40,405 nt of DNA from Methanocalculaceae archaeon. GTDB taxonomy: Archaea; Halobacteriota; Methanomicrobia; Methanomicrobiales; Methanocorpusculaceae. The position numbers and the translations under genes were made by a program. The DNA lies in the NCBI GenBank assembly GCA_031262705.1, contig JAISHD010000075.1:1-40405 (forward strand), written 5' to 3'. Each line of letters opens with the position of its first letter. Within the stretch, counting starts at the first letter, position 1. Under the pieces are notes generated by a model. The model was not told the DNA's origin, did no database searches, and saw only the letters and a list, made by a program, of their open reading frames with translations. This document shows, one piece after another, positions 17,875 to 22,640 of the stretch.

Positions 17875-19362
17875 ATGGGCATCTTTCGTGAACTTGCAAG
17901 CGTCGGACACGATCTTGGAGCGGTTTTTCTCCTGATAGGCCTTGCAACCATTCTGCCGCTCGGAGTCGGGGCATACTATCAGGAGTGGGATGCACTCTTC
18001 GTGATGGGACAGGCAACGCTTCTGTTTCTCCTTCTTGGCGCTTCCCTCCGTCTTCTCCCCAAAGGCAGTAAGCCCGCACGCAACAGTTTGTCCATTGCAG
18101 CAACTGCCCTTGTCTGGATATTTGTCAGTTTTCTCGGATGCCTGCCCTTTCTGTTCACCGGGATGGGGATGCTGGACGCAGCGTTTGAGTCCATGTCAGC
18201 CTGGACCGGCACGGGTTTTACACTTGCAACAAATGTTGAGGACTGGCCCAAGACGCTGTTGTTCTGGCGGTCGTTTATGTCCTGGATCGGGGGTCTGGGA
18301 ATTATCGCGTTCACACTCACGGTTGCCAGCAGATCCGGTCTTGTTACCCGGGGCCTCTATCGCTCGGAAGGGCGTTCGGAAGCGTTCATGCCCAGTGTGA
18401 TCGCGACCGCATTTCAGATGTGGAAGATCTATGTGGTGCTCACTGTTCTCTCTCTTCTCGCCATCATGGCAACCGGTCTGAACCTTTGGGACGCAGTGAA
18501 CGTTGCCTTCTGCGCAATTTCCACGGGAGGAATGTCCATTTACGCAGATGGTATTTCCCATTTCCAGAACTTCGGGCTGGAGATGGTCCTCATCCCGATC
18601 ATGCTTGCAGGAGCACTGCCGTTCCGTCTCTATTATCTCGTCTACACAAACCGTTCCTTCAAAGAGATCATCTCCGACCGGGTTCTTCATCTGCTTGTTG
18701 CAGTCTTCCTGCTCGTTGCTGCTGTCCTTACCTGTGACCTGATTCTGTTCAACAACTATACGCTTGCTGATGCTGTCCGAGAAGGATTCTTTATGTCCGG
18801 AACCGCTATCAGTTCAACCGGATTCCAGAACACCACCATGGCAGGATGGAGTGCGGCCATGATCCTGTTTCTCGCGGTGTTCGTCCTCATCGAAGGAGGA
18901 TCAGGCAGTACGTCGGGAGGTATCAAGCTTGACCGCATTCAGGTGATGGTTGAGGCGATGGTCTGGTGGTTCAGAAAGACAATTGTAAGTCCGCGTGCCT
19001 ACATCCCGATGCGTCATGACGGAAAATCCGTTGCAGGGAAGAACGCCGACATGCTGATTGCAAAGTCTCTGCTGCTGATCATTCTGTATATTCTGCTGGT
19101 CGTTGCAACACTGGTGATTCTTCTGCATGATCCCTACTTCTCTAAAGACGTCATTGGAACCATGTACGATGTTTTCAGCTGTGTGGGCAACAACGGCAGC
19201 ACAGCAGGCATGGTCGGACCTGATATGCCGGACTACTCCAAAGTCGTGATGTACGTTGCAATGTGGATCGGCAGACTGGAGATCATCCCGGTCATCATTC
19301 TCGTCTGGGGTCTGCTCCGCAGATTTGAGTTGCATCTGGGAAGCGGACCGTCGAGAAAGTGA
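17875..19362 (+). CDS. trkH: TrkH-family potassium uptake protein
   Basis: 495 aa polytopic; SAWTGTGFT, AISTGGMSIY, AISSTGFQNTTMAGW, GGSGSTSGGIKLDR, CVGNNGSTAGMVGP pore/loop motifs. Confidence 0.93.
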   Translation: MGIFRELASVGHDLGAVFLLIGLATILPLGVGAYYQEWDALFVMGQATLLFLLLGASLRLLPKGSKPARNSLSIAATALVWIFVSFLGCLPFLFTGMGMLDAAFESMSAWTGTGFTLATNVEDWPKTLLFWRSFMSWIGGLGIIAFTLTVASRSGLVTRGLYRSEGRSEAFMPSVIATAFQMWKIYVVLTVLSLLAIMATGLNLWDAVNVAFCAISTGGMSIYADGISHFQNFGLEMVLIPIMLAGALPFRLYYLVYTNRSFKEIISDRVLHLLVAVFLLVAAVLTCDLILFNNYTLADAVREGFFMSGTAISSTGFQNTTMAGWSAAMILFLAVFVLIEGGSGSTSGGIKLDRIQVMVEAMVWWFRKTIVSPRAYIPMRHDGKSVAGKNADMLIAKSLLLIILYILLVVATLVILLHDPYFSKDVIGTMYDVFSCVGNNGSTAGMVGPDMPDYSKVVMYVAMWIGRLEIIPVIILVWGLLRRFELHLGSGPSRK

Positions 19363-19492
19363 GCGGCGGATGTGTCTTATCCGGCCCGCCTCTACTCATC
19401 CATCTGCATGTACCATTTTTGCGGTATCACTAGAGAAAGGAAGATTGACACAAGTCAAAATATATGTGGCATGCCGGTCAAATAGGTAGTGA

Positions 19493-20299
19493 ATGAGACA
19501 GATAGCCCTCTACGGCAAGGGAGGTATCGGAAAATCCACAACATCCGCAAACCTGTCGGCGGCGTTTTCGGAGATGGACCTGGATGTCATGCAGATCGGC
19601 TGTGATCCCAAACACGACAGTACCCGGATGCTGATGCATGGACGCTGGATTCCGACCGTTCTGGAACAGATGTATGAGCGAAAAGATCTCACCGCCGAGG
19701 ATGTTATCTTCACCGGATTTGGTGGTGTCCGGTGTGTCGAGGCAGGCGGGCCGGAGCCTGGCATCGGCTGTGCGGGGCGGGGAATCATTGCAACGTTTCA
19801 GCTGCTGGAAAAAATGAAAGCGCTCTACGGCAACGTGGTGGTGTATGATGTTCTGGGCGATGTGGTCTGCGGAGGGTTTGCGATGCCGATGCGGGACGGC
19901 TATGCGCAGGAGGTGTATCTGGTGACAAGCGGCGAACTGATGAGCCTGTATGCCGCAAACAACATCTGCAAGGCAATTGCCCGGCTGTCACAGCGGAGTA
20001 CGGCACGGTGCAGGCTGGGGGGAGTTATCTGCAACTCAAAGAATATGGATAACGAACGCGAGCTTGTTGCAGAGTTTGCACACCGGATCGGATCAAACCT
20101 CGTGCAGTTTATTCCTCGCGACAAGGCGGTGCAGGCGGCCGAGGTGAACCAGATGACGGTTATAGAACACGCCCCGCAGTCGCCGCAGGCCGAGGTGTAC
20201 CGCGAACTTGCGAAGACGATTCTTGCCAATGAAGATCTGCGGATTCCCAAAGCCCTTGAACTTGACGAGCTGGAACATCTTGCCAGAGAATATTTATGA
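19493..20299 (+). CDS. Nitrogenase iron-protein (NifH/CfbC/BchL superfamily) homologue
   Basis: [15 protein letters not shown]; Cys ligands in [23 protein letters not shown] and [22 protein letters not shown]-like aaaatatatg at about 19457 and AGGTAGTG upstream of the ATG. Confidence 0.93.
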
Positions 20300-21326
20300 A
20301 GCCCGGATGGCAGGATGCACCTTAACCGGTGCCCTGTCGGTTGCCTGTTTTATTCCCGGAGCGGTAGCGGTGGTGCATGCACCGCAGGGCTGTGTGCATC
20401 AGACGTTTTCCATACTGCATGCGATGGCAAACGAGAGTGATCTCTGGACGGTGCCGGAGATTCTTGTCTCCGATATCAGCGACCGTGAGGTGATCTTCGG
20501 CGGTGAGGAGCGGCTTTCTGCAACACTGGATACGGCGGCGGCAAAGAAACCAGATCTGATTGTGGTGGTGACATCATGCGTGCCGGAGACGATTGGAGAC
20601 GACTGCGGTGTGATCTGTTCCCGCCACCCGTATGCAGACCGGATTGTGTATGTGCCAACGTCAGGATTTCTGGGCGGCAGTGCAAAGGACGGGGAGAATG
20701 CGGTGCTCGAGGCGCTCGCAACCCATGCACCGGTTCGTGAGCCGGTTCCAGGCACGGTTGCGCTGATCGGGGAAAAAAATCTGGAGTCTGAAGCGGATCA
20801 GAACTATGCGGAGGTGGAACGACTGCTCAACCGGCTGGGTCTCCGGGTTACGGTGCGGTTCTGCCGGAACTGTGATTATGCGACACTGATGCAGCTTGGA
20901 ACGGCGGCATGTTTCATTCTGCGGGATGATCGGGCGGCGGATGCGGGGAAAAGGATCGGCGAACGGTTCGGGCGTCCGGTAATTTCTGAGTTCCCCCACG
21001 GACTGTCCGGTTGTCTCACATTCCTGCGGGCAGCCGGAGAAGCGTGCGGTGTTGTGGAGGAACGGATTGCGGCGGCGATTGCGGAGGAGACGGCTTATCA
21101 GGGATCGATGCTGGAGAAGTTTGCAAATCTTTCCGGAACAGCGGTGTTTCTCGGCGCCGAACCGTTCACGGGAACGGCAGAGGTCGCCCGCGAGGCAATT
21201 GCCCGGCTGGACATGCAGGAAAGTACGGACGGATTTTCGATCCGGCTACCGTTTTATCTGCCCATCGGCACCGCAGGGGTTGAGAAGATGCTGTATCTGT
21301 GGCGGCGGACGGTGAACAATGGCTGA
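20229..21326 (+). CDS. Nitrogenase component 1-like protein (NifD/E-like)
   Basis: [47 protein letters not shown] (three NifD-type cysteine positions); [21 protein letters not shown]. Start uncertain (ATG 20229 overlapping the H gene, or ATG 20307). Confidence 0.85.
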
Positions 21327-22455
21327 GAACAACTGTGCAAATCCGGTCTGGCCTTGTGCGATGACCGGAGCAGCGGCGACGCTTGCGGGTTTTCCGGATC
21401 TCTGCGTGATTCTTCACGGGTCATCGGGCTGCTACTATTATCCGCGGTCGCTGCTGAAGGTACCGCTGTTCAGTACGTATCTGCTGGAGTCGGAGATTGT
21501 GTTTGGTACCATCGACCGGCTGCATGCGGTTGTTACTGAGATTGCATCGACCGGAAAACCTGTTGCGGTGGTGAACACCTGTGTTCCGGCACTGACCGGC
21601 GAGGATCTGAAGACGGCATTTTCGGAGGAAACGGCAATGTTTGTGGATGCCCCCGGTTTCTGCGGGAATGCAGAGGAGGGTGCGGCAAAGGCATTTGCAG
21701 CGATGATGCCGGACATTGCAGCGGATCGGTCCGGAGTCAACATCGACGGTATCAATCTGCTGGATCTGTTCTGGCGTGGGAATCTTCATGAGACGGAACG
21801 GCTGCTTGTCCTCCTCGGAATTCCTGTTGCGGTGCGGTTCTGCCGCGACACATGGAAAAATCTTCAGGCGGGAGCAGCTCCGGTCACCATCTCAGCAAAT
21901 CCGTCCTATGCATCAGGTGTAGGAGAGTATCTTGGCAGTATGCTGTTTTTGGATATTCCGAAAACAGTTGACCGGCTTCTTACGCTGTTCCCGAACATTG
22001 ATGCGGAGGTGGTGCTCGCGGAACGGCAGCAGGTGGAGGAACAGATGTTTTACTCCTGTGATAAGTATCTGCGGAAGTACACACCACCGGTCGTTGCGGT
22101 TGCTGCGCAGGAGAGCTACGCGGTGTTTGCAAAAGCGATGATGGAGCGGTACTTCGGGTCAGATGTGCCGGTGGTGTTCGCCCGCGATCGTGCGGCGGCA
22201 TCTGTTCCCTACTCAGTGAACTCCGCGGAGATAAATGCAAAGATTGCGGCGGCAGAACCGGATCTGATTCTCGGTTCAACCTTTGAGGCGGCAGCCTGCC
22301 GGCATGCGGCGTTCTTCGGCATCACGCCGCCGGATAGAAGCCGTATCTCCGTCGCCGCCCGACCTCTTGCCGGTGTTGAAGGGGGGCTGATGCTGATCGA
22401 AGGGGCACTGAATGCGCTGATGAATGCACATACGGCGGAGGGGAAGAAGCAGTAG
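21319..22455 (+). CDS. Nitrogenase component 1-like protein (NifK/N-like)
   Basis: NPVWPCAMTGAAATLAGFPDLCVILHGSSGCYYYPRS and VVNTCVPALTGEDL (NifK-type cysteine positions); overlaps the preceding gene by 8 bp. Confidence 0.85.
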   Translation: MAENNCANPVWPCAMTGAAATLAGFPDLCVILHGSSGCYYYPRSLLKVPLFSTYLLESEIVFGTIDRLHAVVTEIASTGKPVAVVNTCVPALTGEDLKTAFSEETAMFVDAPGFCGNAEEGAAKAFAAMMPDIAADRSGVNIDGINLLDLFWRGNLHETERLLVLLGIPVAVRFCRDTWKNLQAGAAPVTISANPSYASGVGEYLGSMLFLDIPKTVDRLLTLFPNIDAEVVLAERQQVEEQMFYSCDKYLRKYTPPVVAVAAQESYAVFAKAMMERYFGSDVPVVFARDRAAASVPYSVNSAEINAKIAAAEPDLILGSTFEAAACRHAAFFGITPPDRSRISVAARPLAGVEGGLMLIEGALNALMNAHTAEGKKQ

Positions 22456-22640
22456 TTTTTTTTGAAGCCACTGTATCCGAAAGATTCTGATGCAATGATA
22501 AAACATTCCCATATTTGTGCAAAAAAATCTTTTTCGCGCGGAATGATCTGATTTAGGATATTCATTCCGAGTTTATCACGATTTATCATTTTCCAGCCAC
22601 CAGCAATTTATACCCGTAACATCAACAAATAGTTCGACAT

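Follow-up and report, generated by a model that had tools for sequence, protein, structure and literature searches.

Background

F430 is the cofactor needed for methane production. CfbC is required for its synthesis (Zheng et al. 2016; Moore et al. 2017, as cited in PMC8351635). In nitrogenase and Mar, the protein ligand of the catalytic cluster is Cys275 in NifD and Cys270 in MarD (PMC12552129). A further type of protein, in which a NifH-like part is fused to an E-like part (HE), was mentioned by Dos Santos et al. (2012) and filtered from their tree (PMC3464626). Methanosarcina acetivorans and Methanospirillum hungatei both have such a fused protein together with a NifN-like partner.

The window analyzed here, a stretch of 40,405 nucleotides from a member of the Methanocorpusculaceae, carries three genes, denoted H, D and K, that answer to a broad description of a nitrogenase-like H-D-K system, i.e., a NifH-type ATPase and two component-1 subunits with 3+3 P-cluster-type cysteines. 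The locus resembles several of the described systems in part. With MarHDK and other Nfl systems it shares the H-D-K gene order and the P-cluster-type cysteines in both subunits, but D lacks the Cys270/Cys275 ligand of the Fe8S9C cluster, D and K are shorter, and the proteins belong to different clades. Like DPOR (BchLNB) and COR (BchXYZ), it combines an Fe protein with a two-subunit acceptor that has no ligand for a catalytic Fe8S9C cluster; unlike them, it has three cysteines in each subunit and scores far below the cut-offs of the Bch models. H passes the CfbC model and would, like CfbC, serve CfbD. However, D and K are two unlike subunits where CfbD is one, and H falls outside the canonical clade of cfbD-adjacent CfbC proteins.

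Operon layout and gene conservation

The original prediction, made from the letters of the window, named three ORFs, and all of them are present where it had placed them (Table 1). H matches Fer4_NifH with 354 bits, and D and K match Oxidored_nitro with 174 and 118 bits (cut-off 28.6). Low dN/dS values (H, 0.04–0.06; D, 0.09–0.22; K, 0.10–0.15) indicate that these are real, constrained genes, with D and K kept by purifying selection. The ~372 aa given for D does correspond to the ORF, but its TTG start is doubtful: the conserved sequence begins only at ~20307 (MAGCTLTG), most homologues begin 10–20 residues before the first cysteine, and D is therefore probably ~340 aa long.

Table 1. Coordinates of the H-D-K genes and flanking features in the window
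Feature	Coordinates	Strand	Remarks
TrkH-family potassium transporter	17875..19362	+	Upstream of H by synteny; no component of the enzyme
TATA-like AT-rich stretch	19457..19466	+	~30 bases 5' of the H start; possible operon promoter; read by eye
H, NifH-superfamily ATPase, 268 aa	19493..20299	+	ORF, Fer4_NifH
D, alpha-type component-1 subunit, ~340 aa	20307..21326	+	Oxidored_nitro; earlier ORF start is TTG 20208
K, beta-type component-1 subunit, 378 aa	21319..22455	+	Oxidored_nitro; first 8 bases shared with the 3' end of D
T run	22456..22464	+	Starts right after the stop codon of K; may be an archaeal terminator
Acetate transporter	from 22641		Next gene after K; separate from the operon

The cysteines expected of such proteins are also in place. 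The two [4Fe-4S] cysteines attributed to H, Cys93 and Cys126, are invariant across the order, and the three NifD/NifK-like cysteines claimed for each component-1 subunit are kept in 35/35 rows of D (Cys4, Cys29 and Cys91, numbered from 20307) and 34/34 rows of K. Each subunit has one extra conserved cysteine, Cys104 in D (34 of 35 rows) and Cys6 in K (34 of 34), the invariant cysteines of K being Cys6, Cys13, Cys38 and Cys88.

Relationships of D and K

In the component-1 tree, D (100/99), K (100/100) and CfbD (100/100) form separate clades. Neither D nor K falls in the CfbD, Nif or Nfl clades of the tree, which supports the proposal of a heteromeric, uncharacterized nitrogenase-like pair; for Bch, Vnf and Anf proteins, left out of the trees, the comparison was by NCBIfam models and searches of the PDB. 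The pair scores 35.6 and 39.8 bits with the CfbD model TIGR03282 (cut-off 268.4), D scores 50 bits with the nifD model (cut-off 654) and K 30 bits with the nifK model (cut-off 427). Against the Bch models, H reaches 228 bits for BchL (cut-off 345) and 202 for BchX (cut-off 331), D reaches 30–72 bits where the cut-offs exceed 320, and none of the BchN, BchB, BchY and BchZ models is passed. The best PDB profile matches of D, and its NCBIfam match, are to NifE. In the AlphaFold models (pLDDT 90 each), D resembles NifE, NifD and BchB, and K resembles VnfK, NifN and BchB, the last with a TMq of 0.81. We conclude that D-K is not CfbD, Nif, Mar or Bch.

Among the sequences sampled, the nearest relative of D is the E part of the uncharacterized fused HE-N system, the two being sister clades (100/99); K groups weakly with the N partner (86/56). 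Both D and the E part lack an equivalent of the NifD Cys275, and they have an arginine in common (Arg184). In D, the cysteine is deleted or replaced in all rows compared; 12 of 12 aligned rows have an invariant Arg206 and, directly after it, a gap of two columns, whereas a Cys is found in the Nif, Nfl and X proteins of the alpha type. The two systems differ in that H is fused to E in the HE-N system and in that N has Asp and Pro replacing two of the K cysteines.

H as the probable Fe protein of F430 synthesis

H scores 426 bits with the curated CfbC model NF033200 and passes its cut-off of 402 bits, as do the H proteins of other Methanomicrobiales (406–422 bits), and it just misses the nifH model (381 bits, cut-off 394). 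No NifH besides H was found in the genome of the window, a fragmented assembly of 84 contigs whose relatives at genus level are Methanocorpusculum and Candidatus Methanorbis. Exactly one NifH is encoded in 13 of the 27 single-contig genomes of the order (G042, G045, G047, G051, G055, G084, G087, G102, G119, G120, G139, G158 and G189), and it is always the H of the D-K operon. A search for CfbD in 20 Methanomicrobiales, among them 11 of these 13, found it in every one. Where the cfb cluster of Methanosarcina acetivorans, Methanocella and a third lineage has cfbC between cfbD and cfbB, that of eight Methanomicrobiales and of the window's genome (contig C50) reads cfbA-E-D-B without cfbC. We considered whether the missing cfbC could be a mere assembly gap, the window's genome being 79% complete; this explanation is insufficient, since the same absence is seen in the 13 single-contig relatives.

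CfbC is needed for F430, H is the only NifH found and the cfbC slot is empty, so that H must, on this genomic evidence, also serve CfbD. We therefore infer with strong confidence that H has the CfbC function beside its role as donor to D-K. Part of the original prediction has to be revised here. It was right that no cfb gene adjoins H-D-K, the cluster being elsewhere in the same genome, and of the separate cfbC and cfbD to be looked for, cfbD is there and no cfbC was found. But its view of the cassette as independent of F430 synthesis is not supported, given that H passes the CfbC cut-off, that no other NifH was found and that cfbD lies elsewhere without cfbC. Of what would have tied the whole cassette to CfbC/CfbD, one half applies to H, in that no other cfbC was found in the genome; the half that concerns D does not apply, since D is not inside the CfbD clade.

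The Methanomicrobiales thus appear to lack a canonical cfbC and to rely on H for F430, and hence for methane. If this is true, the missing cfbC is explained, an enzyme of uncharacterized substrate is added to the nitrogenase superfamily, and one Fe protein serves homomeric and heteromeric acceptors outside the Nif system. An Fe protein with two types of acceptor would bear on the origin of D/K duplicates from CfbD-like ancestors. The case also cautions against assigning CfbC or NifH by annotation of single genes. A literature search found no sharing of an Fe protein between CfbD and a reductase of the D-K type, and no description of the operon.

Other lineages of the phylum (L199, L172; G545, G232, G235, G244) have CfbD and a single NifH-family protein that falls below the CfbC cut-off; the single NifH proteins of G545 and G232 are outside the canonical CfbC clade in trees. 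Replacement of cfbC may therefore have happened more than once in the phylum.

Origin of H

H could simply be a cfbC that has moved, or a relative of NifH that took the place of cfbC. In a tree of 65 rows, the H clade (99/99) is sister to NifH (88/80), and in a wider tree with 22 CfbC rows it is again sister to NifH (93/91). Taken as several samplings of one question, none of which should be read singly, the AU tests gave a joint clade of H and CfbC a p value of 0.43 in the 65-row tree, 0.02 in the wider tree and 0.07 in the wider tree minus its long rows. The 22 CfbC rows are nearly all cfbD-adjacent, and class I methanogens were left out of the H trees. The wider tree leans against a moved cfbC. 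Replacement of cfbC by a NifH relative is favoured but not proven by these trees.

Distribution and neighbourhood

The compact H-D-K operon is kept in all six sampled families of the Methanomicrobiales, to which D and K appear to be confined. Of the genomes sampled within the order, only one Methanospirillum and G129 lacked a K match at E ≤ 1e-117; outside the order but within the phylum, the best match was partial (3.5e-31). Of 165 matches obtained across 85,462 species, the best 80 were all from Methanomicrobiales except one short Clostridia-labelled contig. This contig, from a horse-faeces MAG (L238, JAKSOD010000098.1), encodes a K that is 55% identical to that of the window and is most likely a misbinned Methanocorpusculum contig. 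In genus g10, which we take to include Methanoculleus marisnigri, K is found a few kb away from D, on the opposite strand in some genomes.

Methanospirillum and G129 have retained H, and D and K are absent. A 139-aa gene that by synteny normally follows K comes directly after H in these genomes, indicating that D-K was lost cleanly. Since Methanospirillum and G129 make F430 without D-K, the latter is dispensable and not needed for F430 itself. The 139-aa protein (L083 4102–4521 and equivalents) has no Pfam or NCBIfam match and is encoded after K in many Methanomicrobiales.

Other syntenic neighbours are TrkH, found upstream of H in ~30 compared loci, FprA and desulfoferrodoxin (both upstream) and a phosphoribulokinase-like protein. 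No neighbour that would name a pathway for D-K was found among the compared loci, where the syntenic genes track H and not D-K, and the surroundings of the operon showed no gene of sulfur assimilation.

Proposed mechanism and substrate

In the scheme that we propose, H would form a homodimer with one [4Fe-4S] cluster and act as an ATP-driven, low-potential electron donor to two acceptors, the CfbD homodimer, encoded elsewhere, for F430 synthesis, and the adjoining D-K, for which fold homology suggests a D2K2 heterotetramer. Electrons delivered to D-K would enter a bridging Fe-S cluster, either a P-cluster or a [4Fe-4S] cluster, to which D and K would each contribute three cysteines. Because the protein ligand of a catalytic Fe8S9C cluster has been lost in D, an organic substrate in the cavity would then receive them with no further cluster in between. 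We infer, with moderate confidence, that D-K has a bridging cluster but no catalytic Fe8S9C, and that its chemistry would be like that of DPOR, COR and CfbD. It is possible that D binds an unusual cluster without a Cys ligand.

The sharing of CfbC with D-K, together with the BtuCD/FecCDE-type importer that lies beside the sister system, weakly suggests a tetrapyrrole or another metal chelate as the class of substrate. To our knowledge, the known tetrapyrrole reductases have no P-cluster; the six cysteines of D-K could, unlike these, hold one, which counts against a tetrapyrrole. As a whole, a single Fe protein H shared by CfbD and a cluster-free D2K2 that possibly acts on a tetrapyrrole or chelate is the reading towards which we lean, if only slightly.

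It is also conceivable, though on balance doubtful, that a NifH-like protein took the place of the original cfbC and brought with it a new, two-subunit, cluster-free reductase of F430 or a related tetrapyrrole, serving repair of oxidized cofactor, salvage or a new variant; one Fe protein would then drive two different tetrapyrrole reductases. The upstream FprA and desulfoferrodoxin would fit repair of an oxidized cofactor by D-K. We give this idea little weight, since both genes stay where D-K has been lost. The papers found for oxidized F430 (didehydro-F430) deal with MCR and its modifications and contain nothing of use for it.

Alternative explanations

Other than a reductase of this type, D-K might be a NifEN-like scaffold that handles an L-type Fe8S9C cluster, with H as its partner, and delivers it, e.g., to the MCR activation complex. 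The NifE matches of D point in this direction, as do the reports that methanogens need NifB and that L-like clusters occur in the MCR activation complex (PMC12176620). We regard this as unlikely, because no D row has the cluster-ligating cysteine of NifE and NifD, MCR is activated in other methanogen orders that have no D-K, and Methanospirillum has lost D-K. The same missing residue, here the equivalent of Mar Cys270 (PMC12552129), argues against a reductase of sulfur compounds that would cleave C-S bonds like methylthio-alkane reductase or the isethionate NFL. An equal three-component architecture, Mar-like 3+3 P-cluster-type cysteines and the expected heterotetramer would all suit such an enzyme, but the compared loci offer no sulfur-assimilation gene and D-K stands apart from the other Nfl clades, so that we consider it improbable.

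The remaining possibilities concern the relation to CfbD. We think it equally improbable that D-K works as a second, heteromeric CfbD, an alternative or auxiliary F430 cyclase that carries out all or part of the reduction of Ni-sirohydrochlorin a,c-diamide. D-K is encoded with the sole CfbC candidate and, as in CfbD, its active site has no Fe8S9C ligand; however, an intact CfbD was present in 20 of 20 genomes tested, lineages without D-K exist, and CfbD is a distant, separate clade. Finally, H could be dedicated to D-K, with CfbD served by an undetected Fe protein or an unrelated donor. The position of H as sister to NifH (93/91), apart from canonical CfbC (AU p 0.02, or 0.07 without the long rows, two samplings of one question), would be consistent with this. 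Against it, no second NifH was found in the 13 single-contig genomes, and H scores above the CfbC cut-off. Its gene is also retained in the lineages that have lost D-K, and its evolution is slower than that of D or K, which would be expected if it had two partners. We therefore judge a dedicated H to be very unlikely.

Other nitrogenase-like loci

The fused HE and N genes adjoin a BtuCD/FecCDE-type ABC importer in M. hungatei and G113 and form an apparent operon with it (L196 3144–9948 and L184 3266–10082). The fused system and the importer could possibly function in uptake and reduction of a chelate or tetrapyrrole.

The Mlab_1039/1040 pair of M. labreanum was reported to have two and one conserved cysteines (Dos Santos et al. 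2012, PMC3464626). It is like H-D-K in being a nitrogenase-like pair from the same genus; by position, it appears to be the second NifH locus at ~1.05 Mb (L186) and not the H-D-K operon, which is at 148–151 kb of the same chromosome. This second locus (L186 4427–7566 in M. labreanum Z) consists of a very divergent NifH and a component-1 gene and is found in only some Methanocorpusculum genomes. Its H match to the full family model has an in-frame stop.

A single NifE-like protein of ~400 aa, with no K-type partner found beside it, is encoded at L194 4855–6129, L332 2927–4117, L333 5450–6703 and L341 4372–5619, and also at L334–L340, L342 and L343. Its gene is downstream of cfbB in four loci and stands alone in others, one of them outside the order. 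The protein keeps three P-cluster-type cysteines, a Cys275-type ligand (Cys236) and an invariant C-terminal His394, and is possibly a solitary, cluster-binding member of the family, perhaps a homomeric one.
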